Source of the DNA: Beijerinckiaceae bacterium
GTDB taxonomy: Bacteria; Pseudomonadota; Alphaproteobacteria; Rhizobiales; Beijerinckiaceae
DNA: 35,612 nucleotides
Direction: 5' to 3'
NCBI GenBank assembly: GCA_031291515.1
Contig: JARLIW010000212.1
Location: 1 to 35,612 of the forward strand
Shown here in pieces: positions 5,440 through 25,953 of this stretch. The notes beneath the pieces were generated by a model. The model was given only the letters and a program-made list of their open reading frames with translations. It was not told where the DNA came from and searched no databases. A program made the translations under genes and the position numbers. The stretch's first letter is position 1, and each line of letters begins with the position of its first letter.

Positions 5440-5551
5440 GAGTCCCTCCTGTCAAATCTGTCGACTGGCAGTTTTGTCTATTTCAGGCGCGCGTCATAAT
5501 TGTTTGTATCCATTGTTGGCATTCACCGGGTCGATCGCTGGCCGCCGCGGA

Positions 5552-6451
5552 TTACGGGCCGTCAAATAATCGCGTGGCCGCCCGCTTAAGCAGCGCCCGG
5601 AACCAAGCGAGGCCGGGGTCTTCGTTTTGGTAGGCCTGCCATTGCAAGACATTGACCATCTCGGGGATGTCGAGCGGAGACGGCAGCACGCGGAGCGGCA
5701 AGCGCTCGGCGCTTTGCCACGCCAGTTGCTCCGGCACGATCGCAAGGTAGTTCGTGCCGACGACGGTCTGCGGAATCTGGGTAAAGCTTGGCGCTACGGC
5801 AGCGACCTTCAGGGATTTGCCATGCTGGCTGTAAAGCCATTCTTCAACAAAGGTCCGCCGCTCGGAATAGGCGGTCACATGGCCGAGGGACAGGAGCTGT
5901 TCTCGCGACAGCGTGTCCTCGACCGTCCGATTCCCAGCCCAGACAATGCAGGCATAACCGTCCCGGAAAAGCCGCTCGCAGGGATGCGCCGGCAAGGCAA
6001 ACCGCTCGGGCACGATCAGAACGTCGATGTCGCTCTTTTCGAATTTGACCGATGTGCCGGCATAATAAATTTCAATCGACGGTGCGAGCGCCGCGATCTC
6101 TTTGAGCACCTCGGGAATCAAGACGGCCCACGCGTAATCGGAACAACTCACCGTAAATCGCCGGCTCGAATTTCGCGGCTCGAAGGCGGAGCGTGTTTTC
6201 AAGAACCTCGTGGTCTGGAGAAGAATTTCACGCAGCGGCTGCGCCAGGGTTTCGGCGAGCGGCGTCGGCACCATGCGCCGCCCCCGAGGCGCGATCAGCT
6301 CGTCCTCGAAATGGGTGCGAAGCCGGGCCAGAGCATTGCTCATCGCCGATTGGGAAATGTGGAGCTCCTCGGCTGCGCGGGTGACGTTCTGGTGCCTAAG
6401 CAAAGCGTCGAGCGCCGCCAGAAGGTTCAGATCGAGGCCATGAAAACGCAT
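5552..6451 (-). CDS. LysR-family transcriptional regulator, NodD-like
   Basis: Regulator of 299 aa. The N-terminus MRFHGLDLNLLAALDALL followed by a winged helix (VTRAAEELHISQSAMSNALARLR) is the hallmark of the NodD branch of LysR proteins. The C-terminal part is an effector-binding domain. I chose the ATG at 6451 rather than an upstream in-frame start at 6697, because the extra 82 residues would overlap the neighbouring gene and have no family resemblance. The start overlaps the cobW stop as TAATG, so translation is probably coupled to it. It lies directly before the oxygenase genes on the same strand and probably controls them. The inducer is unknown. Confidence 0.93.
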   Translation of the reverse strand: MRFHGLDLNLLAALDALLRHQNVTRAAEELHISQSAMSNALARLRTHFEDELIAPRGRRMVPTPLAETLAQPLREILLQTTRFLKTRSAFEPRNSSRRFTVSCSDYAWAVLIPEVLKEIAALAPSIEIYYAGTSVKFEKSDIDVLIVPERFALPAHPCERLFRDGYACIVWAGNRTVEDTLSREQLLSLGHVTAYSERRTFVEEWLYSQHGKSLKVAAVAPSFTQIPQTVVGTNYLAIVPEQLAWQSAERLPLRVLPSPLDIPEMVNVLQWQAYQNEDPGLAWFRALLKRAATRLFDGP

Positions 6452-7476
6452 TAAGTCGCGCCGCCATCCATCCACGCGTGAAACGATTTTTCCACGGCCG
6501 ATCGGGGCAAATCGTGGGTAATGAAGACGATCTTGGAACGCCGGTCGGTGTCTGGCCATATCGGCCACTCGACAGGCGGATAGAAAACGTGCTGAACGCC
6601 ATGAACGACGAGCGGCTTGGCGTGGCCATCGCGGTTGAGGATCCCTTTGATCCGTAAAATCTGTTTGCCGCGGTTCACCAGCAGCAGCTCGAGCCATTCG
6701 GCAAAGACCTCCCAGTCGAGCGGCGTTTCGCGAAAAAGGCAGAAGCTGCTTACGAGGTCGTCGTGGCGAGGAGGTGAGGGCGCGTGATGATGATCGTGAT
6801 GCGTGTGGCTGTCATGATGTTCTTCTTCTTCGAGCCAGGCACGCACGTCCGCCGTCTTGTCTCGAGCCTCGAAGCCCGCATCGAATAGTTCGTTCGGGCT
6901 TGGACCAGAGTCGACGGAGGCGGTGAAAAGCGTTGCCGATGGATTGAGCAACACGAGGCGCCGCCGCAATGCGTCGCGCGTCACGCCTATCGCCAAATCG
7001 CTTTTGGTGAGGACGATCCGATCTGCCATCGCCGTCTGTTTGACGGCTTCCCGATGGTCGTCGAGCTGTTGACCGCCATGGGTACTGTCGACAGTTGTCA
7101 CCAGACCGAGCAACCGGTAGTGCCGCGTCAGCGCCTTGTCGATCATCAGCGTGTGCAAGATGGGCGCGGGATCGGCGAGGCCCGTGGTCTCGATCACCAC
7201 GCGCTTGAAAGGCGGGATCGTTCCATCGGCGCGCTTGGCCCGCAGCTCTTCGAGCGTCTCAACGAGGTCGTCGCGGACAGTGCAGCACAGGCACCCCGAA
7301 TTGAGAAGGATGATGTCCTCATCGACCTTGCGGAGGAGAATGTGATCGAGACCGACTTCGCCCAATTCGTTTACGAGCACCGCGGTCTCACCCATGTCTG
7401 GGTGAGCGAGCAGCCGACGCAGCAACGTGGTTTTACCGCTGCCGAGAAATCCGGTGATGATTGAAACTGGCGTCAT
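6451..7476 (-). CDS. CobW/COG0523 family GTPase, putative metal chaperone
   Basis: A G3E-family P-loop GTPase of 341 aa. Visible are Walker A GFLGSGKTT (9-17), the metal-binding CxCC motif (Cys62, 64, 65), ETTGLADP (96-103) as the switch/Walker B region, TKSD (157-160) for guanine recognition, and the C-terminal CobW domain. A histidine-rich linker (about residues 220-238) is typical of members that carry zinc or another divalent metal. I place the start at the ATG at 7476 (MTPVSIITGF); a longer in-frame start at 7512 falls inside the palindrome at 7512-7530. No strong ribosome site is seen. Because several enzymes nearby are metal hydrolases or iron enzymes, delivery of metal to one of them is a plausible role. 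That partner assignment is inference. Confidence 0.92.
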   Translation of the reverse strand: MTPVSIITGFLGSGKTTLLRRLLAHPDMGETAVLVNELGEVGLDHILLRKVDEDIILLNSGCLCCTVRDDLVETLEELRAKRADGTIPPFKRVVIETTGLADPAPILHTLMIDKALTRHYRLLGLVTTVDSTHGGQQLDDHREAVKQTAMADRIVLTKSDLAIGVTRDALRRRLVLLNPSATLFTASVDSGPSPNELFDAGFEARDKTADVRAWLEEEEHHDSHTHHDHHHAPSPPRHDDLVSSFCLFRETPLDWEVFAEWLELLLVNRGKQILRIKGILNRDGHAKPLVVHGVQHVFYPPVEWPIWPDTDRRSKIVFITHDLPRSAVEKSFHAWMDGGAT

Positions 7477-7511
7477 TGCCCGCACTATGGATGCGCGATC
7501 GCCGCGTTGCA

Positions 7512-7530
7512 AGATCGCATAATGCGATCA
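7512..7530. promoter_or_regulatory. putative GntR operator, site 2 (before cobW-lysR-oxygenase genes)
   Basis: AGATCGCATAATGCGATCA: GATC-N9-GATC with a perfect 17-bp palindrome inside (GATCGCAT-A-ATGCGATC, 7513-7529). One outer base deviates from TGATC-N9-GATCA. It ends 36 bp upstream of the chosen cobW start. Confidence 0.6.
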
Positions 7531-10095: not shown

Positions 10096-10114
10096 TGATC
10101 ATAGATCGTGATCA
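10096..10114. promoter_or_regulatory. putative GntR operator, site 5 (divergent promoter of barrel protein and enolase-family enzyme)
   Basis: TGATCATAGATCGTGATCA is a perfect TGATC-N9-GATCA repeat followed by C. A TTGACT hexamer lies just to its left (10078-10083). It is placed to control both the minus-strand gene starting at 10022 and the plus-strand operon starting at 10175. Confidence 0.72.
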
Positions 10115-10174
10115 CAGCGTAGGGTCGCATAATTAGCTGGATGCGTTTTAACTGACAACGGGTGATTGAAGCGG

Positions 10175-11335
10175 ATGCCGACGATAAAGTCCATTGAAAC
10201 ACTGATCGTGCAATTGCCGACGCGCCGCGAGCATAAATGGGTCGGACTTACGGAGCGCATTGGCCGCTATCTCATCGTCAAAATGACGGACAGCGACGGG
10301 CGGATCGGTTGGGGCGAAGCTCCCGCGCTCAAGGATTGGGGCGGCGAGTTCGGGCGTTATTTCGGTGAGTCGACGCGCATCTGTAAGACCGTCATCGACT
10401 CCTATCTTGCGCCGGCCGCCACGGGCCTTGAGATCGGCAACTTCGTCGAACTCCACGCCCGCATGGACGCGATCATCCGCGGCTATCCCTATTCAAAAGC
10501 CGCTGTCGAGTTTGCGGCTTACGATATCGCCGGCCGGTGGCTGAATGTCCCGGTTCACACGCTGCTTGGCGGCAAGGCACGCGATCGCGTGCCGATCACC
10601 CATTCGATTGGCTTGATCTCGATCGCGGAAGCGCGAGAGGAAGTGGCCAAGGTCGTCAAGGAAGGGATCAGGACCATCAAGGTCAAGATCGGTTCGGACC
10701 CGGCCCGAGACATTGCGATGGTCGACGCGGTGCGCGAAGCCGCTGGCGATGCCGTTGAAATCTGTGTCGATGCCAACGAGGGCTACAAGACTCCCGGCGA
10801 GGCCGTTCAAACCATTCGCAGGATGGAAAAGAACAGACTGAAATATGTCGAGCAACCGGTCATGGGGATCGAACGCATCGCGGAAGTCGCGTCGCGCATC
10901 GACGCGCCTGTGATGGCCGACGAATCCGCATGGAATGCACATGATTCCATCCAAATCATCCAAGGCGGAAAAGTGCAGATCGTCTCGATCTATACCACCA
11001 AGGCGGGGGGGCTGTACAAAGCCATGGAGATCGGCGCGGTGTGCCGGGCCGCCGGCATCCCCTGCAACGTCAATGGCTCGATCGAAACCGGCATCGGCAA
11101 TCTTGCCAATGTCCAACTTGCCGCGGCGTCGCCGGCGGTGACGCTTTCGTGTGTCATTCCCGTTTCGACGCCGGCGGACGCGCAGCACGGCCAAGCGGCG
11201 GGCATCTATTACGAGGACGATTTGCTGGTCGAGCCTATGCGTTTCGTCGAGGGCTCCATCGTCGTCCCAGGCGGTCCTGGCATGGGTATCGACGTCGATC
11301 TCGCGAAGATCGAGAAATACCGTGTGCACGACTAG
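10175..11335 (+). CDS. enolase-superfamily enzyme, mandelate racemase/muconate lactonizing (MLE) subgroup
   Basis: A 386-aa metal-dependent enzyme that would abstract the proton alpha to a carboxylate, giving racemisation, cycloisomerisation or dehydration. An N-terminal capping domain precedes the (beta/alpha)7 barrel. Active-site residues are all visible: K169-V-K171 as one acid/base, metal ligands Asp199 (CVDANEG), Glu226 (YVEQP) and Asp249 (MADES), and Lys276 (TTKAGG) as the opposite base. Two opposed lysines place it in the MLE group, which includes dipeptide epimerases and N-succinylamino-acid racemases. I use the ATG at 10175; a TTG three codons upstream is possible. It leads the plus-strand operon with the M24 gene 31 bp downstream. 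Substrate unknown. Confidence 0.9.
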   Translation: MPTIKSIETLIVQLPTRREHKWVGLTERIGRYLIVKMTDSDGRIGWGEAPALKDWGGEFGRYFGESTRICKTVIDSYLAPAATGLEIGNFVELHARMDAIIRGYPYSKAAVEFAAYDIAGRWLNVPVHTLLGGKARDRVPITHSIGLISIAEAREEVAKVVKEGIRTIKVKIGSDPARDIAMVDAVREAAGDAVEICVDANEGYKTPGEAVQTIRRMEKNRLKYVEQPVMGIERIAEVASRIDAPVMADESAWNAHDSIQIIQGGKVQIVSIYTTKAGGLYKAMEIGAVCRAAGIPCNVNGSIETGIGNLANVQLAAASPAVTLSCVIPVSTPADAQHGQAAGIYYEDDLLVEPMRFVEGSIVVPGGPGMGIDVDLAKIEKYRVHD

Positions 11336-11366: not shown

Positions 11367-12539
11367 ATGCGGGCGGAGATTGTCACGAAGCAGGTCAAAG
11401 CCATGGCGGAGCATGGCCTGGATGCCATCATCTGTTCGTCGCCAGAAAACTTCGCCTATACGACGGGCTTCGTGGTTCCGTCACAGCCGCTTATCCGACA
11501 TCGCCATGCCATGACCATTGTCACGGCTGACGGCCGAGCGGCGGTCTTTGGCGTCGACATGGAAGCTTCGACGATCAAACGCCGCCTTCCCGACGTGCCA
11601 ACACGAATCTGGGCCGAATTCTCCGATGATCCGATGCTTGTCCTCGCCGACCAGCTTTCTGGGCTTGGCCTCGGCGATGCGCGCATCGGGCTCGATATGG
11701 ATTATCTGCCAGCGGGTGATTTCGCCCGCCTTGCGGCGGCGATGCCCGGCGCCCGCTTCGAACATGCCGAGCGCATTTTGGCGCGCCTGCGTCAGATCAA
11801 GACGCTCGAAGAGATCGCGCTGCTCAGCAAGCTTTCGCGGATCGCCGATCAAGCCATCACGGACACGTTGGCGATCGTCGATGCCGGCGACTCGGAGATG
11901 GATATCGCTAGCCATCTGACCCGGCACATCTATTCGCTTGGCGCGGATCATTTCAAATTGCTCATCGTTGCCACTGGCGAACGGAGCGTGCTTCCAAATG
12001 TCGGACCTTCCGACCGTATCCTCAAAAACGGCGATGTGTGCCGCGTGGAAATCTTCTCGGTCATCAACGGCTATCACGCGGGCGTCTGCCGGACGGCCGT
12101 CGTCGGCGAGGCTCCGCCCAAGGCCAACGATATCTGGGCGCATCTCGTCGAGTGCAAGTATGAAATCATGGCGAAGGTCAAGCCCGGCGCGAGCTGCCGC
12201 GACATCTACGACGCGTTCATCGCCAAACTGTCCAAACTCAACCTACCGCCGATCTCCTTTGTCGGTCATGGCATTGGCCTGCATTTGCACGAGGACCCCT
12301 ATCTCGGCGTGACGCCGATGCTCGGGAAGCCGGGCACGGATGCGATCATCGAGGAGAACATGGTCCTGGGCTTCGAGCCTCTCTGCTATGATACCGGGCT
12401 CGGTTTCGGCATGCAGAACAAAGATATGTTGGCCGTGACCTCAACCGGATCTAAATTGTTGTCGGATTATGCGGACACCGACAAACTCATTGTCTGCGGC
12501 TCCGCCAAGCATGGCGGCGACGTGAAAGCCGTGGCCTAG
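11367..12539 (+). CDS. M24-family creatinase-like hydrolase lacking most metal ligands
   Basis: A 390-aa two-domain pita-bread protein: creatinase N-terminal domain (about 1-145) and M24 catalytic domain (150-375). The start ATG has GAGAAGGAA just upstream. In metal-dependent aminopeptidases the five ligands are D, D, H, E, E. Here the positions read Glu228 (CRVEIF), Gly239 (YHAGVCRT), His301 (GHGIGLHLHE), Glu337 (GFEPLCYD) and Lys352 (QNKDM). Loss of both aspartates and of the last glutamate is what is known for creatinase and the ectoine hydrolase DoeA/EutD. The likely role is metal-free hydrolysis of an amidino or cyclic-amidine C-N bond rather than peptide cleavage. That role is inference from residues and context. 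Confidence 0.85.
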   Translation: MRAEIVTKQVKAMAEHGLDAIICSSPENFAYTTGFVVPSQPLIRHRHAMTIVTADGRAAVFGVDMEASTIKRRLPDVPTRIWAEFSDDPMLVLADQLSGLGLGDARIGLDMDYLPAGDFARLAAAMPGARFEHAERILARLRQIKTLEEIALLSKLSRIADQAITDTLAIVDAGDSEMDIASHLTRHIYSLGADHFKLLIVATGERSVLPNVGPSDRILKNGDVCRVEIFSVINGYHAGVCRTAVVGEAPPKANDIWAHLVECKYEIMAKVKPGASCRDIYDAFIAKLSKLNLPPISFVGHGIGLHLHEDPYLGVTPMLGKPGTDAIIEENMVLGFEPLCYDTGLGFGMQNKDMLAVTSTGSKLLSDYADTDKLIVCGSAKHGGDVKAVA

Positions 12540-12660: not shown

Positions 12661-14100
12661 ATGCGCACACTGATCGAACATCTGAATTTTGTTCTTACGG
12701 TCGACAAGTCCGACACGGTCTTGCGCGACGCCAGCATCGTGGTCGAGAACGATAGGATCGCCGGCATCGGCCCGGCGACGGAAATCGCCAAGCAGTATGA
12801 GAATGCCGTCTTCGACAAGGTGATCGACGGTACGATGTTGGGCATGTGCCCGGGTTTCGTCGACAGCCACGTGCATCTTTCGGAAACCCTGTCGCGCGCG
12901 GTCTTCCCCGACAATCTGAATACCCGTGCTTGGGTATTCCATTGGGCCAAACCGTTCTATGCTCATATCACCGAGGAAGACGAATATTGGGGCGCGCTGC
13001 TTGGCATCACCGAGATGTTGCGTTCAGGCACCACCTGCTTCCTCGACATGGGCTCGCAATACGATCCCGGGATCGTCGTGCGCGCGATGGATAAGACGGG
13101 CATCCGCGGCATTACCGGCCGTCATGCCGCCGACAATCCGCCGGCTGAGCTGCCGCGTGGCTGGACACAGGAAATGGCGGACCACCACTTCTTCCCGGAC
13201 GCGCCAACGGCCCTCAAAGTATTGGAAGACTGTGTCCGCCGATACAACAATGTGCTCGATGGCCGCGTCCGTTGTTGGGTCAACATCGAGGGGAAGGAGC
13301 CTTGCAGCCTCGAACTGCATGTCGGGGCCGTCGCTCTCGCCGAGAAGCTGGGAGTTGGCACCACCTATCATCTCGCGACCTCGATCGAAGAAGCCAAGAT
13401 CTGCGAAAGCAAATATGGTTGCTGGCCGGTCACGCGCATCGACCGCGCGGGCGGCATCCGGAAGAACCTCGTGATCGCCCATGGCGTGGCGATCGCCGAC
13501 GCGGAAGTCACGTTGCTTGCCGAACGCGGCGCCAGTGTCGCCTTCTGCCCGTGTTCGTCTTTCAAATTGGGGAAGGGCGCGACATCGATCGGCAAATATC
13601 CGGAAATGGTCAAAGCCGGTGTTGCGGTCGGTCTTGGCACGGATGGTGTCTCCGCCGCCGGCAATATGAATTTGATGCGGCAGATTCTCTTGGTCGCCGG
13701 CATGTTCAAGGATGCTCGCCTCGAGCCCGATATTTTCACCGCGCGCCAAGCCTTGCGCGCCGCGACGATCGAAGGCGCCCGCGCCTTGATGTGGGATGAC
13801 GAGATCGGCTCGCTGGAACCCGGCAAGAAGGCCGATTTCATCCTATTCGATCTCGACCATGTCGAGTGGACGCCCTTCTACGATCCGCTTCAGGCGCTCG
13901 TGTTCTCGGCTTCGACAGGGTCGATCGTCCAAACCTGGGTCGATGGAAAACCGGTTTACGCCGACGGGAAGGTCCAGGGTGTCGACGAGGCGGAAATCCG
14001 CCGCAAGGCGCGTGAGTTGGCGAAAGCCGCCGTCGCGCGTGCGGGCTTGCACGAAGAGGGGATCGAAACGACGACGACGCTTTATCAGGAGGGAAACTGA
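12661..14100 (+). CDS. ATZ/TRZ-type amidohydrolase (deaminase/chlorohydrolase family)
   Basis: A 479-aa metal-dependent hydrolase of the cytosine deaminase/SAH deaminase/TrzA group. The metal site is H70-x-H72 (DSHVHL), His237 (TYHLATS), His274 (IAHGV) and Asp328 (LGTDGVSAAG). In deaminases of this group His237 is normally followed three residues on by a catalytic Glu (HxxE); here that position is Thr240, so the proton-shuttle chemistry may differ. The N- and C-terminal strands form the usual small beta-sandwich domain. It lies 121 bp after the M24 gene on the same strand; the gap shows no operator of the kind seen elsewhere, so it is probably read from the promoter at 10.1 kb. A deamination or ring-opening of a nitrogen heterocycle fits. 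Confidence 0.88.
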   Translation: MRTLIEHLNFVLTVDKSDTVLRDASIVVENDRIAGIGPATEIAKQYENAVFDKVIDGTMLGMCPGFVDSHVHLSETLSRAVFPDNLNTRAWVFHWAKPFYAHITEEDEYWGALLGITEMLRSGTTCFLDMGSQYDPGIVVRAMDKTGIRGITGRHAADNPPAELPRGWTQEMADHHFFPDAPTALKVLEDCVRRYNNVLDGRVRCWVNIEGKEPCSLELHVGAVALAEKLGVGTTYHLATSIEEAKICESKYGCWPVTRIDRAGGIRKNLVIAHGVAIADAEVTLLAERGASVAFCPCSSFKLGKGATSIGKYPEMVKAGVAVGLGTDGVSAAGNMNLMRQILLVAGMFKDARLEPDIFTARQALRAATIEGARALMWDDEIGSLEPGKKADFILFDLDHVEWTPFYDPLQALVFSASTGSIVQTWVDGKPVYADGKVQGVDEAEIRRKARELAKAAVARAGLHEEGIETTTTLYQEGN

Positions 14101-14158: not shown

Positions 14159-14177
14159 TGATCCCAAAACGTGATCA
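14159..14177. promoter_or_regulatory. putative GntR operator, site 6 (before the six-gene operon)
   Basis: TGATCCCAAAACGTGATCA (14159-14177) is a perfect TGATC-N9-GATCA repeat, here followed by A instead of C. It lies in the 167-bp gap between the amidohydrolase and the octopine-dehydrogenase-family gene, 90 bp before the latter's GTG start, indicating an internal promoter of the cluster. Confidence 0.7.
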
Positions 14178-14267: not shown

Positions 14268-15356
14268 GTGAAAGTTGCAGTGTTAGGGGCGGGAGCGGGC
14301 GGCGCGGCCTCGGTTGTCGAATTGGTCCAAGCAGGACACATCGTTCATTTCTGGGGCCGATCGCCCGAGACGCTCGAACCGCATGTCAAACTGGGTGGAG
14401 TCGCCTATGACGGCGTATTCGGTGAGGGCGTCGCGCATCCCGCCTTGATCACGACGGACTTCAAAGCGGCAATCGAAGCCGTCGACGTCGCGGTGGTCGT
14501 GCTGCCAACTTTCTCGCATGCCCCGATCGCCTCCGCGTTGGCAAAGGCTGGCTGGTCCTCGGACAAACTGATTGTTCTCAATCCGGGTCATACGGGGGGC
14601 GCGTTGGAATTTGCGCATGCCTTCGCGCGCGAAGGCGGGGCTGTTCCGCCCGTCGTCGAATTTTCGACGCTTGCCTATGTCGCGCGCAAATACCGTCCCG
14701 ACGGCGTCACCATCAGCGGTCGCGCGAAGGAATTGAAAGCAGCGGCTCTAGGAGGCGGCGGCGCGGCCCTTGAGATCGCGGCGAAATTGTATCGGGGGCT
14801 CAATCCTGTCGCGGATGTTCTCGCGACCGATCTTTCCAACGTCAACATGATCCTGCATCCGCCGGGTGCCGTGCTCGCGGCGGCCTGGGCCGAGGCGAGG
14901 GGCGGCGATTTCACGTTTTACGTCGACGCGATGACTCCCGGCGTCGCGCGCGTCATGAAGCAGTTGGACAACGAACGATTGGCGGTGGCCAAGGCGTTCG
15001 GGCACGAGCTGCCGAATTTGATTCAGGAGATGAAGCTGCTCGGGACCGTCGAGGCCGATGTGACCGACACCAGCGACTTCCGATCCGCAATCGCTGGCGG
15101 CGAAGCCAATAAGCGCATCAAGGGACCAAATTCACTCGATCATCGCTACTACAAGGAAGACTTTGGACACGGGCTGCTGCCATTCCTTGAATTCGCGAAG
15201 ATCGCGGGCGTCGAGACGCCGGTGGCGCAGGCTCTGTTCAATGTGGCGCAAATCGCTGTCGGAATGGATTATCGCAACGGCGGCCGCACCGCGGAGACGA
15301 TGGGTATTGCCGGAATGACCAAGGATCAGGTCATCGAGAAGGTGAGGGCGCTATGA
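14268..15356 (+). CDS. NAD(P)-dependent oxidoreductase of the octopine/nopaline dehydrogenase family
   Basis: A 362-aa two-domain dehydrogenase. The start is GTG at 14268 with GGAG 7 bp upstream; this puts the first beta strand of the Rossmann fold at the N-terminus (VKVAVLGAGAGG, glycine motif 7-12). A longer reading from an upstream ATG would add a Pro/Arg-rich tail. The C-terminal helical domain carries the family signature HPPGAVLAAAW...FTFYVDAMTPGVARVM...DNERLAVAKAFG. Known members oxidise or form opines (secondary amines between an amino acid and a keto acid). In a catabolic operon the oxidative direction, opine-like amine to imine, is the more likely one. Its stop overlaps the next ATG (ATGA). 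Confidence 0.88.
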   Translation: MKVAVLGAGAGGAASVVELVQAGHIVHFWGRSPETLEPHVKLGGVAYDGVFGEGVAHPALITTDFKAAIEAVDVAVVVLPTFSHAPIASALAKAGWSSDKLIVLNPGHTGGALEFAHAFAREGGAVPPVVEFSTLAYVARKYRPDGVTISGRAKELKAAALGGGGAALEIAAKLYRGLNPVADVLATDLSNVNMILHPPGAVLAAAWAEARGGDFTFYVDAMTPGVARVMKQLDNERLAVAKAFGHELPNLIQEMKLLGTVEADVTDTSDFRSAIAGGEANKRIKGPNSLDHRYYKEDFGHGLLPFLEFAKIAGVETPVAQALFNVAQIAVGMDYRNGGRTAETMGIAGMTKDQVIEKVRAL

Positions 15357-16243
15357 GCTGGCGGAAGATCGTTATCGCGATCGTTGCGGGGGATGCCCGC
15401 GAACAGGAGATTGCCCGCTGCGCCGTTCGCGCTGGCGCGACCGTCCGCGCCTACGGCTTCCCGTGGCCGGAGGCGGGCATCGAGGGCGTCTTCCACGCCG
15501 AGAATGCCGCCGAGGCATTGAAGGGCGCCGACATTGCTCTGTTTCCGATTCCAGGAATCTCGGCCGAGGGTGCGTTGTTCGCGCCGAAATGTTCGGAGAA
15601 GATCATCCCGACGCGCGAAGTGCTGGCCGGCATGAACAAACCGGGCCACATCATTTTGGGTTGGGGCGATCCCAATCTGAAGAAGCATTGCGCGGAACTT
15701 GGAATCACGCTGCACGAATATGAATGGGACGTCGATCTGATGTTGCTGCGCGGTCCGGCAATCGTCGAAGGCGTGCTCAAGGTGATTATCGAGAATACCG
15801 AGATCACCATCCATAAGTCCAACATCACATTGGTCGGGCAGGGCACGATTGGTTCGCTTCTGACGAGAACGCTCGTGACGCTCGGCGCGCATGTTCGCGT
15901 TGCCGCGCGCAACCCCGTCCAGCGCGCCGCGGCCTATGCGGCCGGCGCGGACCCCCTGGAACTGGAGCAGTTGCCCGACTGTCTGCCCGAGACGGATATC
16001 GTCATCGGGACCGTCCCCAAGCAGTTGCTCGACCGGGCATTGCTGACGCTTCTGCCCAAGCATGCGCTTCTCGTCGATGTGGCGGCCCCGCCGGGCACGA
16101 TCAATCGCGACGCGGCGGGCGAATTCGGACTGAAGACTATCTGGGCAAGGGGCATGGGCGCGCGCGCGCCCATTACAGTGGGCCGCAGCCAATGGAGCGG
16201 CATCAGCCGCCGGATCGACGGAATCTTGGAGCAAGCCAAATGA
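15353..16243 (+). CDS. dipicolinate synthase subunit A (DpaA/SpoVFA)-like dehydrogenase
   Basis: A 296-aa Rossmann-type protein. Its layout matches DpaA of spore formers. An N-terminal flavodoxin-like domain has GDAREQEIARC (13-23; Bacillus DpaA has a GDARQLEIIR-type motif). A linker PAIVEGVLKVIIENTEITIH (135-154) is followed by an NAD(P)-binding domain with LVGQGTIGSLLTRTL (160-174) and VRVAARN (181-187). DpaA forms dipicolinate from a cyclic dihydrodipicolinate-type intermediate together with DpaB. No DpaB homologue is present here and the host is not a spore former, so a related reaction on a different cyclic imine or amine is likelier. The gene overlaps both neighbours by ATGA. Assignment rests on motif resemblance recalled from the family, not on an alignment. 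Confidence 0.7.
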   Translation: MSWRKIVIAIVAGDAREQEIARCAVRAGATVRAYGFPWPEAGIEGVFHAENAAEALKGADIALFPIPGISAEGALFAPKCSEKIIPTREVLAGMNKPGHIILGWGDPNLKKHCAELGITLHEYEWDVDLMLLRGPAIVEGVLKVIIENTEITIHKSNITLVGQGTIGSLLTRTLVTLGAHVRVAARNPVQRAAAYAAGADPLELEQLPDCLPETDIVIGTVPKQLLDRALLTLLPKHALLVDVAAPPGTINRDAAGEFGLKTIWARGMGARAPITVGRSQWSGISRRIDGILEQAK

Positions 16244-17586
16244 AAGTGGATCTGGCCATCAAAAACGCGCGCGTGATCCGCCATGACGGCGAATTTCACG
16301 GCGGTGTCGCGATCCGCGACGGCAAGATCGTGATGGTCGGCTCGGACGAGGCCCTTCCGGAGGCGACGCGCACCATCGATGCCGAAGGCCGCGTGCTGAT
16401 GCCCGGCGTGATCGATCCGCATTGTCATCTCGGCGTGAAGTACCCTTTTGCCGAAGACATGCGCACCGAGACCGCGGCCGCCGCGTCCGGCGGGGTGACC
16501 ACGGTTCTGCTCTACATCCGCAATCTCAAGGAATCATATCTGCCATTCTATGCGGAGCGGAAAGCGGTCGGCGAAGACAATTCCGTCATCGACTTCGGCT
16601 TTCACTTCGGCATTCAACGCGAAGAGCATATCGCGGAGATTCCGGAGATCGTCGCCAAGACCGGCGTGAAATCCTTCAAGTGCTATTTCGGCTATGAGCC
16701 CGACAATCCCATCGGCATCGTGCCGGCGACCGATGGCTGGGTCTACGCGGCCATGCGCATCCTCTCCAAGATCCCAGGGGGCGTCATCAACGTTCACTGT
16801 GAAAACACGCAGATCGCGTCATGGATCAAGAAGGAAGTCGCGGCGACGGGCCGTCAAGACCTCGGCGCCTACACGGAATCGCGTCCGGCCTTCTGCGAAG
16901 TCGAAACGATCCGGCGCATGATCTTTCTCGCGGAAAAGACCGGTTGCTCCTTGCACCTGGTCCATACTTCCGTGGGCATGGGTCCGGTGCTCGCCGCGGA
17001 AGCCCAGGCGCGCGGCATCCATGTGACCGTCGAGACGTGTCCGCATTATCTCACGCGAACCTGCTATGACGAGGATCTCGATATGCGCGCGAAGATCTCG
17101 CCGCCGTTGCGCGACCGGACCGAGCTCGAAGGACTATGGACAGGGATCGCGAACGGATCGGTCTATAGTCTCGGCACCGACCATGTGCCGTTTCTACCCA
17201 AAAAGCTCGAAGACCTCTGGACCGAGTTTCCCGGCGTCGTCAGCTTTCCGTGGGAATTGCCGCTGATGCTGCACTTTGGCGTTCACCAGCGCGGGCTGTC
17301 GCTCTCGCGATTGGTCGAGCTCAACTCGTTCAACCCGGCGAAGCGCTTCGGTTTGTGGCCGCGCAAGGGTCACATCGACATCGGTTTTGATGCTGACCTC
17401 GTGCTTGTCGATCTTGATGAGGAACGCACCGTCGAGCACAATGGAAAAGGCACCTGCATTTACGAAGGCTGGAAACTCAAGGGCTGGCCGGTGATGACCG
17501 TCGCGCGCGGCGAAGTGGTCTACGAGAACGGCACGGTTGCGGACCGCCATTATGGCCGCGGCCGATGCCTGAGCCTTCCCTCATGA
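16240..17586 (+). CDS. dihydropyrimidinase/hydantoinase-type cyclic amidohydrolase
   Basis: A 448-aa binuclear zinc hydrolase of the hydantoinase/dihydropyrimidinase/allantoinase/dihydroorotase group, which opens cyclic ureides or amides. Every metal-site residue is present: His61 and His63 (DPHCHLG), the carboxylated lysine Lys147 (SFKCYFGY), His186 (VHCEN), His242 (LVHTS) and Asp314 (GTDHVP). The starting ATG at 16240 overlaps the previous stop (ATGA); an upstream in-frame ATG at 16192 would lie inside the dehydrogenase gene. Expected product is an N-carbamoyl or amide acid, which the isochorismatase-type hydrolase encoded 0.9 kb downstream could then split. This order of hydrolases resembles the creatinine/N-methylhydantoin and pyrimidine routes, but the substrate is not known. 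Confidence 0.9.
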   Translation: MKVDLAIKNARVIRHDGEFHGGVAIRDGKIVMVGSDEALPEATRTIDAEGRVLMPGVIDPHCHLGVKYPFAEDMRTETAAAASGGVTTVLLYIRNLKESYLPFYAERKAVGEDNSVIDFGFHFGIQREEHIAEIPEIVAKTGVKSFKCYFGYEPDNPIGIVPATDGWVYAAMRILSKIPGGVINVHCENTQIASWIKKEVAATGRQDLGAYTESRPAFCEVETIRRMIFLAEKTGCSLHLVHTSVGMGPVLAAEAQARGIHVTVETCPHYLTRTCYDEDLDMRAKISPPLRDRTELEGLWTGIANGSVYSLGTDHVPFLPKKLEDLWTEFPGVVSFPWELPLMLHFGVHQRGLSLSRLVELNSFNPAKRFGLWPRKGHIDIGFDADLVLVDLDEERTVEHNGKGTCIYEGWKLKGWPVMTVARGEVVYENGTVADRHYGRGRCLSLPS

Positions 17587-18261: not shown

Positions 18262-18462
18262 ATGCCGTTCGTAATCGTTGAGATGTGGGAGGGGCGCACG
18301 GTCGAGCAGAAGCGCAGGCTGGTTAAAGCCATAACGAATGCGATGGTCGAAGAAGCCGACTGCAAGCCCGATCATCTCCACGTCGTGATCCACGAAACGC
18401 CGAAAGACAGCTGGGGCCGCAACGGCATCCTCGGCATTGACATGGTAGAGCAAAAGAAATGA
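18262..18462 (+). CDS. 4-oxalocrotonate tautomerase-like protein
   Basis: A 66-aa tautomerase-superfamily monomer starting MPFVIVEMWEGRTVEQKRRLV. After removal of Met, Pro1 becomes the N-terminal catalytic base, the defining residue of the family. The helix TVEQKRRLVKAITNAMVEE and the strand HLHVVIHETPKDSWGRNG fit 4-OT. The ATG at 18262 is preceded by GGAGAAATGA, which also contains the stop of the previous gene. Family members interconvert enols, dienols and ketones or hydrate related acids; in this operon it could tautomerise an enamine/enol released by hydrolysis. Its stop overlaps the next start (ATGA). Confidence 0.9.
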   Translation: MPFVIVEMWEGRTVEQKRRLVKAITNAMVEEADCKPDHLHVVIHETPKDSWGRNGILGIDMVEQKK

Positions 18463-19448
18463 GCCTCGAAACCTTGGACTATCGCAAGTCTGCGCTTCTG
18501 GTCATCGATTTGCAGAATGCCTTTATCCACGAAAAGGGCACGCTCGGCATTTCCGGGGTCGATACGAAACGGCTTGCCTCGATCGTCCCGCCGCTCGCCA
18601 AGCTCATCCAGCGCTGCCAGGACGTCGGCATTCCGGTCATCTGGACGATGCAGGAGCATTTCGCGATCGATCGCAATCGAGCCAAGAAAAAGTTGCTCGG
18701 ACATACCGCGCGCCGCAAGCAGGTCTCGGCGCTCGCGGGCAGTTGGGACGAACAGATCATAGATGAACTGAAGCCGCTGGCGGACTTTGATCCGGCTTTC
18801 GTCATTCGCAAGCACCGGTTTGGCGCCTTCTATGAAACCCGGCTCGAAATGATGCTCAAGATGCTGGGGACCCAGCATCTGTTCATCACCGGCGCCACCA
18901 CGAACGCCTGTGTCGAAACCTCGATCCGAGAAGCCTATTTGCGCGATCTCGACGTCATCGCCGTCGACGACTGTATTTCGGGCGTCAATTCCGACTGGGA
19001 AGCGACCGCGAAGCAGGTCTGGAAGCAGTATTTCTGCGAGATTTCGGCCTCGTCGGACGTGCTGGAATGGATCGGCGAGCAGATCAAGCCGCGCGTCACG
19101 GAATTCGGCCATCAGCTGATCTTGGTCGCCGATATCGAAAAGTCGGTCGATTATTACGTCAACTTGCTCGGTTTTACGATTCGACCGGCGAAGCCCTTGG
19201 CGGACGGGCGTGATTTCACAGCGTTTCATCAAGGTATTGCTTTGGTTCAAGGCAGGTCCGCCGATCACCGCCAAATCGATCATATCGCTTTCGAGGTGAA
19301 TGACGTCCGCGCCATGGACGCCAAGTTGAAGAACGCCGGTGTGCGATATTACCAGGACCTCCATAACGGGCCATATGGTCTGACGATTTACGTCGCGGAT
19401 CCCGATGGCACCAAGGTTGAATTGTACCAGATAGGCGCGACGGCCTGA
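18459..19448 (+). CDS. isochorismatase-family cysteine hydrolase fused to a VOC (glyoxalase-like) domain
   Basis: A 329-aa two-domain protein. Residues 1-205 are a cysteine hydrolase of the nicotinamidase/isochorismatase/N-carbamoylsarcosine amidase superfamily, with the triad Asp17 (VIDLQNAF), Lys118 (RKHRFGAF) and Cys151 (TTNACVETS) intact. Residues 215-326 form a vicinal-oxygen-chelate domain: QLILVADIEKSVDYYVNLLGF, IDHIAFEV and DPDGTKVELYQ, with His218, His275 and Glu321 as possible metal ligands. The frame is continuous across the junction. The hydrolase half fits release of ammonia or carbamate from an N-carbamoyl or primary amide made by the cyclic amidohydrolase upstream. The VOC half could act on the product or bind it. 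Last gene of the coupled operon that starts at 14268. Confidence 0.9.
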   Translation: MSLETLDYRKSALLVIDLQNAFIHEKGTLGISGVDTKRLASIVPPLAKLIQRCQDVGIPVIWTMQEHFAIDRNRAKKKLLGHTARRKQVSALAGSWDEQIIDELKPLADFDPAFVIRKHRFGAFYETRLEMMLKMLGTQHLFITGATTNACVETSIREAYLRDLDVIAVDDCISGVNSDWEATAKQVWKQYFCEISASSDVLEWIGEQIKPRVTEFGHQLILVADIEKSVDYYVNLLGFTIRPAKPLADGRDFTAFHQGIALVQGRSADHRQIDHIAFEVNDVRAMDAKLKNAGVRYYQDLHNGPYGLTIYVADPDGTKVELYQIGATA

Positions 19449-19534: not shown

Positions 19535-19556
19535 TATTGATCACGATATGAGATCA
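19535..19556 (+). promoter_or_regulatory. gntR promoter with putative operator, site 7
   Basis: TTGATCACGATATGAGATCA includes the perfect repeat TGATC-N9-GATCA (19538-19556), followed by C. A possible -35 TTGTCG (19512-19517) and -10 TATTGA (19535-19540) are 17 bp apart, and the repeat overlaps the -10. This is a layout expected for autorepression of the gntR gene starting at 19666. Confidence 0.65.
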
Positions 19557-19665: not shown

Positions 19666-20409
19666 ATGCCACCCAAGAAGCTCAATACTGAAATCATCGA
19701 GAAGGATGCCGCCAAACCGGCGCGCGGCCATGTGCACGAACATGTCCAGCGCTATATGCGGCGCGGACTCATGGTGGGCGCTTTTTTGCCAGGCCAAGTG
19801 ATGAGCTTGCGCAAATTGGCCTTCGGGCTCGGGACCAGCCCGATGCCGGTTCGCGAGGTCCTCAGCGGTCTCGTCGCCGCAAATGCGCTCGAGGAGACGA
19901 AGGGGGGCTCGGTGCGTGTTCCGCGGCTCAGTCCGGAGAAGTTGAGCGAGCTGTTTTCCGTCCGCGAAATGCTGGAAGGCGCGGCCACCGAGATCGCCGC
20001 GAAAAAAGCGGAGCCTGATCTGGTCGACAATCTGACGACCATCAATCAGCAGCTTCTCGTTGCGATCGAGAACCGCGATATTATGAAATGCCTCTCCTTC
20101 AACCAGAAATTCCACTTCACGCTCTACGAGGCCGCGGGTTCCGAAGTGCTCATGCCGCTGATCGAATCGCTTTGGCTTCAATCGGGTCCGACCATCTATA
20201 TGTCCTTGCTCATTCCTTCGATGCCGTGGAGCGCCGGGCATCATAAGGAGATCCTTGCCGCGCTCCAGCGCAACGAGCCCGTGGCGGCCAAGAAGGCGAT
20301 CGTCCAGGACATTCGCACGACCGGTAAGGCGCTGCTTGGCATGACCGGATCCCAGGGTCTCGAACTGATGTTCGCGCATAACTTCGAGCTGCAGTTCGAT
20401 TTCGAGTGA
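19666..20409 (+). CDS. GntR-family transcriptional regulator, FadR/FCD subfamily
   Basis: A 247-aa regulator. The N-terminal winged helix spans about 22-88 with the recognition region LAFGLGTSPMPVREVLSGL (51-69), characteristic of FCD GntR proteins (normally 'gvSrtPvReAl'). The C-terminal all-helical FCD domain (about 95-235) has His150 (NQKFHFTLYEAAGS) and His192/193 (GHHKEIL), which in relatives bind a metal and contact a carboxylate effector; the usual Asp ligand appears to be Asn146. It sits between the degradative operon and ridA, and a TGATC-N9-GATCA repeat overlaps its own promoter. I infer that it is the local repressor acting at all sites of this kind in the window. Effector unknown. 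Confidence 0.93.
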   Translation: MPPKKLNTEIIEKDAAKPARGHVHEHVQRYMRRGLMVGAFLPGQVMSLRKLAFGLGTSPMPVREVLSGLVAANALEETKGGSVRVPRLSPEKLSELFSVREMLEGAATEIAAKKAEPDLVDNLTTINQQLLVAIENRDIMKCLSFNQKFHFTLYEAAGSEVLMPLIESLWLQSGPTIYMSLLIPSMPWSAGHHKEILAALQRNEPVAAKKAIVQDIRTTGKALLGMTGSQGLELMFAHNFELQFDFE

Positions 20410-20432: not shown

Positions 20433-20900
20433 ATGGTCGGAAAAGTCGAGCAGACGCTGGCGGGTCTTGGCGTTCATTTGCCCCTGGCGGTCGCGCCGGC
20501 GGCAAATTATGTGCCGGCTCGGAGAGCTGGCAATCACATTTACATCTCGGGCCAGGTTCCGAGTGAAAATGGCAAGGACAAGTATACGGGCAAACTCGGC
20601 TCGGACTTTTCGGTCGAGGAAGGACAAGCGGCCGCGCGTCTTTGCGCGGTGAACATCCTTGCTCAGCTCAAGACCGCTCTGAACGGCGATCTTGATCGCG
20701 TGGTGGGGGTGATACGCCTTGGCGGCTTCGTCAACGCGGAGCCGGATTTCAAGGATCATCCCAAAGTCATCAACGGGGCGTCCGACCTCATGGTCGAGGT
20801 TTTTGGCGAAGCGGGGCGTCACGCCCGCGCGGCCGTAGGCTGCTATTCATTGCCACGCAATGTTCCTGTCGAAGTCGAGGCTCTTTTCGAAGTCGTCTAA
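20433..20900 (+). CDS. RidA/YjgF-family protein
   Basis: A 155-aa member of the Rid family (enamine/imine deaminase), slightly longer than E. coli RidA. The core is HIYISGQVPSENGKDKYTG, then GQAAARLCAVNILAQLKTALNGDLDRV, and Arg132 in ARAAVGCYSLPRNVPVEVEALFEV, the arginine that anchors the substrate carboxylate in RidA. I chose the ATG at 20433 because GGAGGTGAT lies 7 bp upstream; an in-frame GTG at 20406 overlaps the gntR stop and is also possible. It follows gntR on the same strand. Removal of reactive enamine/imine intermediates made by the oxidoreductases upstream would explain its presence. Confidence 0.9.
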   Translation: MVGKVEQTLAGLGVHLPLAVAPAANYVPARRAGNHIYISGQVPSENGKDKYTGKLGSDFSVEEGQAAARLCAVNILAQLKTALNGDLDRVVGVIRLGGFVNAEPDFKDHPKVINGASDLMVEVFGEAGRHARAAVGCYSLPRNVPVEVEALFEVV

Positions 20901-21234: not shown

Positions 21235-22914
21235 TCAGAGATTGATAAACATCCCCGCAAGGAAATTGAGCGCATGATTTATGTTATATTGCGGGACGAC
21301 CGGAGCGGCCGCGGAGCCGTAGGCCACCGCATTTGGGCTCCAAGTTGACGAAGGGTGATCCACGTAGGCCGCTCCAAACAATACATGCCAGCCGGGAATT
21401 ATCGACGCATTGTAGATTAACGTATATTGGTTTGTAGCATGACGGACGCATTCCAATCCGCTCATACACGTTGCGCTCGCGTCCACGGGATTGGCGACAT
21501 AAGGGCTGTAGACCTGATGCTCCCAGGTCAGAGAGATTTGATCGCGGGGCCGGTTGAATGCGCCGTATGAATAGAGACGAGCTTGGAAGTCTTGAGTTAT
21601 GCTGCTTGCTTCTGGTTTCGCCCAGGCCGCGGTGCCTCCGACATAAAGGCCCTTATAGGCCGTCGCCGAAGAACTTGGTTCGAATTGCCACAATTGTCGA
21701 TCGATGTATAACTGGACCGCGTCATTCGTCGTCTGTTTGGACGTAAACTGCAAGTTTTCATATAATGTTGTATTGTAGTAGCCGGTGACGCGGACCCACG
21801 TATATGGGCTACCTATATCGGCCTCGTTCTTATATCCCAATTCGTCGATGAACAACTCGCGGCTCGTCGGATATTTGACGCCGAAGATAACGGGCGTATT
21901 GGAGAAATTGAACCCGGTTGGATTCGAATAATGTTGCGCTAGAAGATTGCCCACGGGGCCGCCCAACGTCGTCGTTGCGATGGATTTCGAGACGGACGCT
22001 TTGTCATAAATATGATCGGCGATATTCCAGCGCAGAATGGCGGCGGGTGTCGGAGCTCCATCCTGGCTGCCGCCTTCGATCGCATGGATTGTCGAGCCCG
22101 GGCCCAAGACGTTGGCGATGTTCCCGCCGACTTGAGTGCCGACGAACTGTTTGTCGAGTCCAATGTAACCGACGTTGAATTCGAGGGTATGATTGAAGGC
22201 GCTCTGGTAATATGCCAACTGCGCGAGGGTCAGGTCATTGGGGACGTAACCGACCCAAGTGCTGGTTTCTTCGAGGGCGCCGAATTGAAGTTGGCCGTCT
22301 GGAATGCCATAGCGGCTTAGATCGTAGAACAGGAAAATATCCGGATGCTGCGCCGCGGTGGTTCGGTCGCCGACATATTTTTGCAGGTTCGACGCCGGAA
22401 CGTAGTGATTCAACATGTTCGTTTGAAGCAGGGACACATCGTAGATCAACAAACCAAAGCCGGCTTTCGCGAGATTGGTACGCCAGCAATTATCGTCCTG
22501 CGTGAGCGAATCCGCGAATGAAGGAGGAGAAATGACCCATCCCTTTAAATTATATTTTTTATTGAGCGCCGCGGCCGATTCCGCCGAGCATGCCGGAATA
22601 GGCGCGCGCGACGCCACTGGCGTATCGGTAGGGATTTGGACGGCCTGCCCCCGTTTCGGCGCATTCGCGCGACCGGATGCGCTCTTCGTCGGTTTGTGCG
22701 TCTTGAGAACTTGCTTGGTGAACGCTTTGTTTGCGGCGGCGCTCGCGCCGTTGTAGTCGCTCACTTGCGCGAAGGCAGGGTGAGCCACGATGCTGGTGCA
22801 AACCAAACTCGTCAGTCCCACGAGCCGTCCGGCGGTGCCTAGGCGGCCCATGGTTCCGCAAGTGGTCTTGGCGTGGCGGATACGATTCGACGCTATTTTA
22901 CAAAAGTTTTTCAT
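21235..22914 (-). CDS. OprB-like carbohydrate-selective outer-membrane porin
   Basis: A 559-aa outer-membrane protein. The signal peptide ends at AHPAFA before QVSDY (about residue 49); a low-complexity, Lys/Ser/Ala-rich stretch to about residue 100 precedes the barrel. The barrel part begins LNKKYNLKGWVISPPSFADS and shows the extended aromatic strands of OprB porins, including IFLFYDLSRYGIPDGQLQFG, VGYVPNDLTLAQLAYYQSAF and VQLYIDRQLWQFEP. The C-terminal residue is Leu (AGMFINL), not the usual Phe/Trp. The ATG at 22914 has GGAGGA 9 bp upstream. It follows leuD-like gene 1 on the same strand after 95 bp and may be part of that operon, admitting a sugar acid or polycarboxylate. Substrate unknown; the family assignment is from overall pattern. 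Confidence 0.65.
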   Translation of the reverse strand: MKNFCKIASNRIRHAKTTCGTMGRLGTAGRLVGLTSLVCTSIVAHPAFAQVSDYNGASAAANKAFTKQVLKTHKPTKSASGRANAPKRGQAVQIPTDTPVASRAPIPACSAESAAALNKKYNLKGWVISPPSFADSLTQDDNCWRTNLAKAGFGLLIYDVSLLQTNMLNHYVPASNLQKYVGDRTTAAQHPDIFLFYDLSRYGIPDGQLQFGALEETSTWVGYVPNDLTLAQLAYYQSAFNHTLEFNVGYIGLDKQFVGTQVGGNIANVLGPGSTIHAIEGGSQDGAPTPAAILRWNIADHIYDKASVSKSIATTTLGGPVGNLLAQHYSNPTGFNFSNTPVIFGVKYPTSRELFIDELGYKNEADIGSPYTWVRVTGYYNTTLYENLQFTSKQTTNDAVQLYIDRQLWQFEPSSSATAYKGLYVGGTAAWAKPEASSITQDFQARLYSYGAFNRPRDQISLTWEHQVYSPYVANPVDASATCMSGLECVRHATNQYTLIYNASIIPGWHVLFGAAYVDHPSSTWSPNAVAYGSAAAPVVPQYNINHALNFLAGMFINL

Positions 22915-22954
22915 CGCTTAAGTCCTCCCATATATTTTTTGTTTGTGGTGGTGA

Positions 22955-22976
22955 CCGCGCTGCGCGGATTTTTTTT
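22955..22976 (+). terminator. short hairpin plus T8 on the plus strand
   Basis: CCGCG-CTG-CGCGG (22955-22967) is followed by A and eight T residues, the form of an intrinsic terminator reading rightwards. The genes on both sides are on the minus strand, so it has no obvious client; it could stop antisense transcripts. On the minus strand the T run becomes an A run before the hairpin. Confidence 0.35.
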
Positions 22977-23009
22977 GATTTGTCGCGCGGGCGGTTTTAG
23001 TTGTTCAGA

Positions 23010-23633
23010 TCACATGAGCGGGTCTGTATTCACTGACCCGCCCCCCGCGGAATTTGGTATCGCCCACGGGCGCCTGAGCGCATCTTCACGTTGCCAGGCG
23101 GTAATTTGCGTGGCGCTCCGCAGGGTCAAGCCAAGTTCATCGACGCCTTCCAGCAGCATTTCCCGGCGGACCGGGTCGAGGGTGAAGGCGTGTTGCGTCC
23201 CGTCGGGGGCGATCACGATGCATTGGCGTAGATCCACGGTGACATTCGCGCCGCGGGCCGCTTGCTCGGCCAGGGAAACGACCGCCGTTTCGGGCAAGGT
23301 CACTGGCAACATCCCGTTTTGAAAGCAATTGGCGAAGAAAATGTCGCCGTACGAGGATGCGATCACGCAACGGATGCCGAGCCCCTGAAGGGCCCAAACG
23401 GCGTGTTCGCGGGACGAGCCGCAGCCGAAATTGGCTCCCGTCAGCAGGATCGGCGCGCCGCGGAACATCGGCTGGTCGAGGACGAACCCTGGCGCTCGGA
23501 GCGGCTCCAGGGCCCATTGGCCGAGCTCCGCGCGCGGAACGTTGACATGCTCGATGCGAATGATGACATCCGTGTCGATGTCTTGGCGCATCAAAGGAGC
23601 GGCGGGACCGGAAACGATGGAAAAGGGCTGCAT
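23010..23633 (-). CDS. isopropylmalate dehydratase small subunit-like protein (cassette 1)
   Basis: A 207-aa swivelling-domain subunit of a two-part aconitase-type hydratase. The N-terminus RQDIDTDVIIRIEHV corresponds to the LeuD 'NvDTDqIiP' region, with the usual Pro replaced by Arg. The phosphate/carboxylate loop GANFGCGSSREHAVWAL is intact, followed by SSYGDIFFANCFQNGMLPV. It begins 5 bp after the large-subunit stop. In LeuD, changes near the first loop alter substrate size selectivity, so the I-I-R-I reading hints at a substrate other than isopropylmalate. Linkage to a lyase gene and not to leuA/leuB supports a catabolic hydratase. Confidence 0.9.
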   Translation of the reverse strand: MQPFSIVSGPAAPLMRQDIDTDVIIRIEHVNVPRAELGQWALEPLRAPGFVLDQPMFRGAPILLTGANFGCGSSREHAVWALQGLGIRCVIASSYGDIFFANCFQNGMLPVTLPETAVVSLAEQAARGANVTVDLRQCIVIAPDGTQHAFTLDPVRREMLLEGVDELGLTLRSATQITAWQREDALRRPWAIPNSAGGGSVNTDPLM

Positions 23634-23638
23634 CTGAG

Positions 23639-25036: not shown

Positions 25037-25040
25037 GGTA

Positions 25041-25907: not shown

Positions 25908-25953
25908 AATGTTATCCTCCCATCAGGTCGATGCCTGTTACTTATTATTCTAA

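Follow-up and report, generated by a model that had tools for sequence, protein, structure and literature searches.

Dipicolinate synthase subunit A (DpaA), the closest described relative of the protein considered here, has so far been studied as a sporulation enzyme. Published accounts state that DpaA and DpaB are both required for dipicolinate synthesis in Bacillus subtilis (PMC9024752), that dpaAB is also known from some non-sporogenous Firmicutes (PMC3533761), and that some spore formers lack dpaAB and EtfA works on what DpaA produces (PMC9024752, PMC3533761, PMC7985256). We analysed a 35,612-nucleotide stretch of a Beijerinckiaceae genome (Alphaproteobacteria; assembly GCA_031291515.1, contig JARLIW010000212.1; hereafter "the window"), in which an open reading frame (ORF) at 15353–16243 encodes a DpaA-like protein among catabolic genes (Table 1). 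We give an even chance to the reading that this stand-alone DpaA-family oxidoreductase catalyses one step of a regulated uptake and degradation pathway for a nitrogen heterocycle, which would be of the cyclic ureide or amidine type. In the open-licence PubMed Central literature, as represented by titles and the starts of abstracts, we found no paper describing the cassette or a catabolic DpaA, and the cassette is apparently an uncharacterized N-heterocycle catabolic regulon.

The ORF encodes a genuine two-domain DpaA-family protein. The Pfam DpaA_N domain spans residues 8–123 (75.6 bits, E 4.6e-21; gathering cut-off 29.2), and the C-terminal half gives weaker matches to Rossmann families (2-Hacid_dh_C 33.3, Shikimate_DH 30.4, F420_oxidored 29.1, and AlaDh_PNT_C 24.1 bits). 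The nearest solved sequences are both DpaA (2rir, E 5.7e-28; 3d4o, E 3.3e-26), as are the nearest folds. Specifically, for an AlphaFold2 model built from 39 aligned DpaA-like sequences, without the cut loci L049 and L052 (mean predicted local distance difference test score, pLDDT, 90.4; predicted TM-score 0.69), Foldseek ranks 3d4o (E 2.5e-22) and 2rir (5.4e-22) ahead of transhydrogenase domain I (2e-11), alanine dehydrogenase (AlaDH) 3p2y (6.8e-11), and pyruvate reductase 4zgs (1.3e-9). VIA-align Z scores against the two DpaA entries are 31.6 (3d4o; over 288 residues) and 28.4, as compared with at most 21.5 for SAHH, AlaDH (21.2), and transhydrogenase. These last three share the overall two-domain fold (Z of about 21), but with lower Z and only 13–18% identity, and none of them is known to carry DpaA_N. 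We therefore rejected an ordinary AlaDH or D-2-hydroxyacid dehydrogenase, to which sequence matches are confined to the C-terminal Rossmann half and fold scores are lower than to DpaA. A chance ORF was rejected as well: relatives from Aminobacter, Shinella, and Bradyrhizobium are 81–86% identical, and the ratio of non-synonymous to synonymous differences is low (pN 0.09–0.19 vs. pS 0.49–0.69; seven pairs). The initial annotation, made from the letters alone, had read a two-domain DpaA layout and three motifs from this ORF, and had proposed a profile search and a structure comparison with Bacillus DpaA as checks. Both checks agree with it, the motifs are present (GDAREQEIAR at residues 13–22, TIH at 152–154, GQGTIG at 162–167), and the profiles did not place the protein clearly in another dehydrogenase family lacking the DpaA N-domain, the outcome it had named as contrary.

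Within this family, the protein is a stand-alone member that branches apart from spore DpaA. Its near full-length matches to the NCBIfam models DpsA (PRK08306; 195.2 bits, cut-off 261) and spore_dpaA (TIGR02853; 176.9 bits, cut-off 319.65) fall below the equivalog cut-offs, which at the level of sequence is family resemblance and not equivalog membership. The missing DpaB partner noted by the initial annotation is borne out: spore_dpaB matches nothing in the genome to which the window belongs, which is 87.6% complete, and tblastn with four DpaB queries (E limit 0.01) found none in 70 non-Bacillota sources, i.e., 73 loci plus the window, less four Bacillota loci. Nor does the sporulation context hold, as Spo0A_C has no match in the window's genome and the surrounding genes are catabolic. 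That annotation's placing of DpaA outside spore formers thus stands as far as Spo0A goes, but not as a novelty, since dpaAB had already been reported in non-sporogenous Firmicutes (PMC3533761).

Sequence comparison with four spore DpaA/DpsA proteins (about 26% full-length identity to the DpaA/SpoVFA entries 2rir and 3d4o) shows both what is kept and what is changed. Common to all are G13, D14, R16, P65, G103, E139, and T152, as well as the GxGxxG glycines, R186, P222, D242, G269, P273, and T275; the GDxR, GxGxxG, D242, and P-x-T (273–275) elements thus occur in all four spore proteins, and TIH or TLH occurs in three. With these residues identical across the four, the active-site frame looks kept. 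On the contrary, E17, D126, R133, P246, R271, Q280, and W281 are kept in 26 or 27 of 27 cassette-type rows (a count that leaves out L054 and L070) and not in the spore rows, where D126, R133, Q280, and W281 are replaced by other residues. In an arbitrarily rooted tree of 33 rows (the window, 24 of 40 genome loci, four actinobacterial regions, and the four spore proteins; near-duplicates left out), the spore proteins are set apart by a branch supported at 100/99. Support for the deepest split is only 46/69, and several branches are long, among them L070, which meets the spore rows, L054, and two clostridial rows. Bacillota DpaA is represented in this tree by just four proteins, all from plasmid records.

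The low genome counts across our scans indicate that the DpaA-like gene is rare and patchy. In the class, four of 385 genomes had a DpaA_N match, two above the cut-off (the window's own and G426) and two below it and not counted (G074 and G251). In the phylum, two of 398 exceeded the cut-off, namely the window's own and G501, the latter dropped since its match (29.1 bits, or 29.6 with neighbours in frame; cut-off 29.2) lies in what looks by eye like a beta-hydroxyacid-dehydrogenase-like ORF. Searching with the protein itself matched four of 60 genomes (own included), of which the window's own and G008 remain; the other two, G006 and G055, gave partial Rossmann matches and were left out as relatives. 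For an actinobacterial carrier, five of the 296 genomes of its phylum matched, carrier included. Among plasmid records, 18 gave a match: 14 from Aminobacter, Shinella, or Phyllobacterium (80–90% identity) and four from Bacillota.

Where the gene occurs, it tends to have the same neighbours. The genome scan yielded 40 loci (L015–L054), and tblastn, where contigs extend, recovered a full cassette of genes for an enolase-superfamily protein, an M24-fold protein, a TRZ/ATZ-type amidohydrolase (ATZ), an opine/octopine dehydrogenase-family protein (ODH), the DpaA-like protein, a hydantoinase/dihydropyrimidinase-like enzyme (DHP), a 4-oxalocrotonate tautomerase (4-OT), and an isochorismatase–VOC fusion. 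Its carriers are alpha-proteobacteria, Variovorax JS1663, two gamma-proteobacterial metagenome-assembled genomes (MAGs), and an actinobacterial MAG; of four more actinobacterial regions, selected because they match DpaA_N, three also carry it. Most alpha-proteobacterial loci add GntR, RidA, CobW, and an NMT1-type ABC importer. Among 41 loci (the window and L015–L054), ODH lies directly upstream and DHP directly downstream of the DpaA-like gene in 30, with a four-nucleotide ODH/DpaA overlap in 26 of these; no ODH adjoins the gene in the other 11, two of which (L043 and L052) are cut right before it. DAO-family dehydrogenase genes occur in the cassettes of 15 of 50 loci, the window not among them, and a DAO protein adjoins the DpaA-like gene of L014/L051. 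Cytosine deaminase (passing its equivalog cut-off in L005; 578.9 vs. 403 bits), DadA, malate synthase G, and transhydrogenase genes are present in some relatives and have no tblastn match in the window. Further genes include 2-oxoacid dehydrogenase parts (E1 subunits in L072, a lipoyl protein in L071) and P450 in L048 and L050. A by-eye guess of a nucleobase permease at L048:632–2224 (-) was set aside, having no Pfam or NCBIfam match.

A short form of the cassette (L040–L046, L049, and L052) has neither ODH nor a hydantoinase-like gene next to the DpaA-like gene. All five core genes (DpaA-like, 4-OT, VOC, enolase, and M24) are found in L040, L042, L045, L046, and L052, while the first three of these are seen in L041, L043, and L044, and the sequence of L049 stops within the DpaA-like gene. 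The VOC protein is stand-alone in L040 and L042, and would be so in the other short loci judging from spacing. The hosts are a Rhodospirillales MAG (L040), an uncultured bacterium (L042), and otherwise mostly records titled beta-proteobacteria. A molybdenum-hydroxylase large subunit is confirmed by Pfam in L042 and recognized by eye in L040, L045, and L046. In the 33-row tree, short forms are nested among full ones (two changes for short, three for full), which suggests that the short forms probably arose by gene loss.

Three further arrangements of DpaA-like genes and cassettes deserve mention. An actinobacterial region holds a distant DpaA-like gene (34% identity) beside a DHDPS-family gene (L070:9336–11823, -), near a GntR-like gene and an NMT1-type importer. 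Outside the cassette, one alphaproteobacterial MAG carries two extra DpaA-like genes (L051:9977–10897 and L054:9989–10897), one of them adjoining a DAO-family oxidase and an ABC importer. The cassette on an Aminobacter aminovorans plasmid (L009), in which the ATZ gene is shortened, is flanked by TniQ/TniB/Mu-type transposase gene sets (4137–7492 and 22444–25799), and their presence on both sides suggests transposition.

In the window, the palindrome TGATC-N9-GATCA heads four units: the importer; enolase/M24/deaminase; ODH/DpaA/hydantoinase/tautomerase/isochorismatase; and regulator/RidA. Its four occurrences compare with 0.10 expected, none of 100 shuffles reaches four, and the 25 sites in the whole genome correspond to about 0.23 per window-sized stretch. 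A reversed-pattern control (no sites in the genome) was not relied on, since CTAG, a rare tetranucleotide in many bacteria, forms part of that pattern. Across 50 loci, with 300 bp upstream of each gene considered, the site precedes GntR in 30/36, the importer's substrate-binding protein (SBP) in 24/27, ODH in 24/38, enolase in 22/34, and cytosine deaminase in 21/27 (mostly shared with a divergent GntR); it precedes M24 in 2/39 and CobW in 1/33, and was not found before DpaA-like (0/48), RidA (0/30), ATZ (0/34), 4-OT (0/44), or DadA (0/15) genes. In the two gamma loci, it lies upstream of enolase and M24; in three Bradyrhizobium loci, no site precedes the gene that matched SBP. These patterns leave the four-unit regulon well supported, with the FCD/GntR protein as the putative binder of its sites. 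The initial annotation had proposed a catabolic operon containing an octopine-dehydrogenase-family neighbour; the ODH match and the neighbouring catabolic families support this, and the operon is also part of the larger regulon with its own importer.

From the families encoded, we propose the following order of events. The ABC importer would take up the compound; the ATZ-type enzyme (in relatives, also a cytosine-deaminase-type enzyme) would strip amino groups; ring opening of a cyclic amide or ureide would fall to the hydantoinase-like enzyme, and removal of a carbamoyl or amide group to the isochorismatase-type enzyme; and the metal-ligand-poor M24 protein may hydrolyse an amidine-like bond. 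An amino or imino acid would then undergo redox steps, with the ODH-like enzyme acting on an open-chain imino acid and the DpaA-like step falling before or after it. In that least certain step, the DpaA-like protein might carry out reversible hydride transfer at a C–N/C=N bond next to a carboxylate, on a cyclic imino acid or closely related intermediate. Imino-acid-type transfer is suggested by the kept DpaA frame, with D126/R133 hinting at a different substrate. A cyclic imine or imino acid as substrate—the initial annotation had suggested degradation of a cyclic imine or amine—may be read from the motifs in common with DpaA, from neighbours of the imino-acid type (ODH and, in relatives, DAO), and from the presence of ring-opening hydrolases. 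The cofactor is perhaps NADP(H), at a guess, because R186, which we take as a sign of NADP preference, follows strand 2 and transhydrogenase genes lie near four of five plasmid cassettes (none in the window). Creatinine, pterin, purine, hydantoin, and arginine-derived heterocycles were considered as substrates; none is singled out.

Hydantoin/pyrimidine, creatinine, and ectoine utilization pathways offer the nearest parallels in content, with a cyclic amidohydrolase, an isochorismatase-type amidohydrolase, RidA, a deaminase, and an M24 protein with replaced ligands. However, they are not known to include a DpaA-like, ODH-like, enolase-superfamily, or 4-OT member, and the window's DHP, isochorismatase, ATZ, M24, and RidA proteins score below the NCBIfam cut-offs compared, with 4-OT passing one.

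The same evidence can be read in other ways. That a spore former donated a true dipicolinate synthase subunit, with which the cell makes dipicolinate, would suit the shared family motifs and the two solved DpaA structures as nearest folds, yet we give it hardly any credence: the scores below both equivalog cut-offs and the missing DpaB (in genome and loci) and Spo0A_C matches led us to reject dipicolinate biosynthesis, the branch to the spore clade is long, and an importer-linked regulon stands in place of lysine or spore genes. The kept DpaA-type motifs could also fit a ring reductase in a pathway degrading dipicolinate or another pyridine carboxylate, as could the Mo-hydroxylase genes adjoining short-type relatives—in L042 together with an Amidohydro_2 protein, CMD, and alpha/beta hydrolases. 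This seems improbable to us, as a pathway for a pyridine dicarboxylate would seem to leave the full cassette's deaminase and hydantoinase-like enzyme without a task, and residues 126 and 133 have changed. The frequent ODH/DpaA gene overlap in full-type loci invites the idea of a single two-subunit enzyme with ODH in DpaB's place; the loci in which the DpaA-like gene has no adjacent ODH, even with two of them cut right before the gene, make this improbable. Finally, chemistry unlike that of DpaA, e.g., hydroxy-acid or transhydrogenase-like hydride transfer with the N-domain as a merely shared fold, would agree with the Z of about 21 for SAHH, AlaDH, and transhydrogenase domain I and with the changes at 126 and 133; we consider it unlikely, since the Z of 31.6 to DpaA is clearly higher and motif positions are held in common with spore DpaA.

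Against an imino-acid step in N-heterocycle breakdown several further points must be set. The fold family also holds SAHH, AlaDH, and transhydrogenase, so the hydride could be passed to a different group; all four spore rows have R at 126 and N at 133, where the cassette type has D and R; and, both subunits being required in B. subtilis, a lone DpaA fold might act differently. Mo-hydroxylase, CMD, and Rieske genes in the short-type L042 and L046 suit aromatic catabolism equally. As for the regulon, 21 of the 25 genome sites of this loose pattern lie outside the window, sites are absent at the examined genes of short-type L040–L046 and actinobacterial L050 and L071–L073 and before ODH in L031, L033, L035–L038, and L053, and the many close relatives among the sampled loci (Aminobacter, Shinella) mean that locus counts are not independent.

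If the N-heterocycle reading is correct, this distinct branch, with its place in a conserved catabolic regulon, would reveal a role of the DpaA fold without DpaB, and could help explain the origin of dipicolinate synthase. More tentatively, and we think it somewhat doubtful, the cassette may be a widely transferred and hitherto undescribed pathway handling a common N-heterocycle, in which a DpaB-free DpaA fold serves as a cyclic imino-acid dehydrogenase/reductase, the spore enzyme and this one being two outcomes of an older imino-acid dehydrogenase family. The cassette is a ready target for a substrate search: its importer and regulator are defined, as are the operator-like sites and about nine enzymes.

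Table 1. Features of the window around the DpaA-like gene, in order of position.
Feature	Position	Strand	Evidence
ABC importer ATPase	610–1446	-	68% identity to cassette ATPase
ABC importer permease	1443–2297	-	61% identity to cassette permease
ABC importer SBP, NMT1 type	2326–3354	-	NMT1 134 bits; 46% identity to cassette SBP
Operator-like site before ABC importer	3356–3374		TGATC-N9-GATCA
CobW-type GTPase	6451–7512	-	cobW 151 bits; 47% identity to cassette CobW; no operator-like site before it
Operator-like site before enolase-M24-ATZ	10096–10114		TGATC-N9-GATCA
Enolase-superfamily protein, muconate-cycloisomerase/epimerase subgroup	10166–11335	+	MR_MLE_C 169 bits; mucon_cyclo 234, cut-off 335
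M24-fold protein, prolidase metal ligands replaced	11367–12539	+	Peptidase_M24 124 bits
TRZ/ATZ-type amidohydrolase (probable deaminase)	12661–14100	+	Amidohydro_1 190 bits; 5'-deoxyadenosine deaminase model 258, cut-off 522
Operator-like site before ODH-DpaA-DHP	14159–14177		TGATC-N9-GATCA
Opine/octopine dehydrogenase-family protein (ODH)	14268–15356	+	Octopine_DH 134 bits; 4-nt overlap with DpaA-like gene
DpaA-like two-domain NAD(P) oxidoreductase	15353–16243	+	296 aa; DpaA_N, AlphaFold2 model, Foldseek, VIA-align
Hydantoinase/dihydropyrimidinase/allantoinase-like cyclic amidohydrolase (DHP)	16240–17586	+	4-nt overlap with DpaA-like gene
Small protein, "resolvase" in most annotated plasmid relatives	17583–18260	+	Weak phytanoyl-CoA-hydroxylase-like fold
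4-OT family, Met-Pro start	18262–18462	+	PRK02220 55.9 bits, cut-off 55, passed
Isochorismatase-family amidohydrolase fused to VOC (glyoxalase-fold) domain	18459–19448	+	Isochorismatase 125, Glyoxalase 51 bits
Operator-like site before GntR-RidA	19538–19556		TGATC-N9-GATCA
FCD-type GntR regulator	19666–20409	+	FCD 75 bits, GntR 36 bits
RidA-family protein	20433–20900	+	YjgF_endoribonc 107 bits; ORF list start 20406

Among the genes on either side, ODH has an earlier GTG start at 14196 in the ORF list and is nearest in solved sequence to CENDH (1bg6, 183 bits). DHP carries motifs that we take for metal ligands, scores 280–290 bits with NCBIfam allantoinase/D-hydantoinase models (under their cut-offs), and is nearest to an L-hydantoinase (1gkr, 221 bits). 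The 4-OT protein fails a second model (PRK00745; 65.9 bits, cut-off 80), and the isochorismatase domain resembles RutB and biuret hydrolase. The M24 protein best matches solved prolidases (99 bits), with creatinase and ectoine hydrolase at 57 bits; aligned to 5giu, however, it reads D to E, D to G, and E to K at what are presumably prolidase metal-ligand positions and so lacks the five-ligand set. Creatinase and ectoine hydrolase likewise replace these positions, and the M24 protein is possibly of their kind. The true start of the SBP is probably about 50 bases inside its ORF, and its nearest solved sequences (an exported protein, 47 bits; a thiamine-pyrimidine binding protein, 33.5 bits) are too weak for naming a ligand.

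The small protein downstream of DHP has no Pfam or NCBIfam match, and its AlphaFold2 model (pLDDT 80.6) matches 2a1x weakly (Foldseek E 8.5e-5, TM just 0.34). Its relatives are labelled "resolvase" in four of five plasmid stretches, a label that looks wrong. Between the importer and a LysR gene lie a VanA-type Rieske oxygenase (4411–5439, -) and its likely reductase (3412–4371, -), neither of which is found in the annotated plasmid stretches L005–L009. Farther downstream, 23010–31701 holds two aconitase-family large/small subunit gene pairs with PEP-mutase/isocitrate-lyase-family, GntR/UTRA, and MmgE/PrpD genes between them, perhaps a methylcitrate-like or tricarboxylate pathway.

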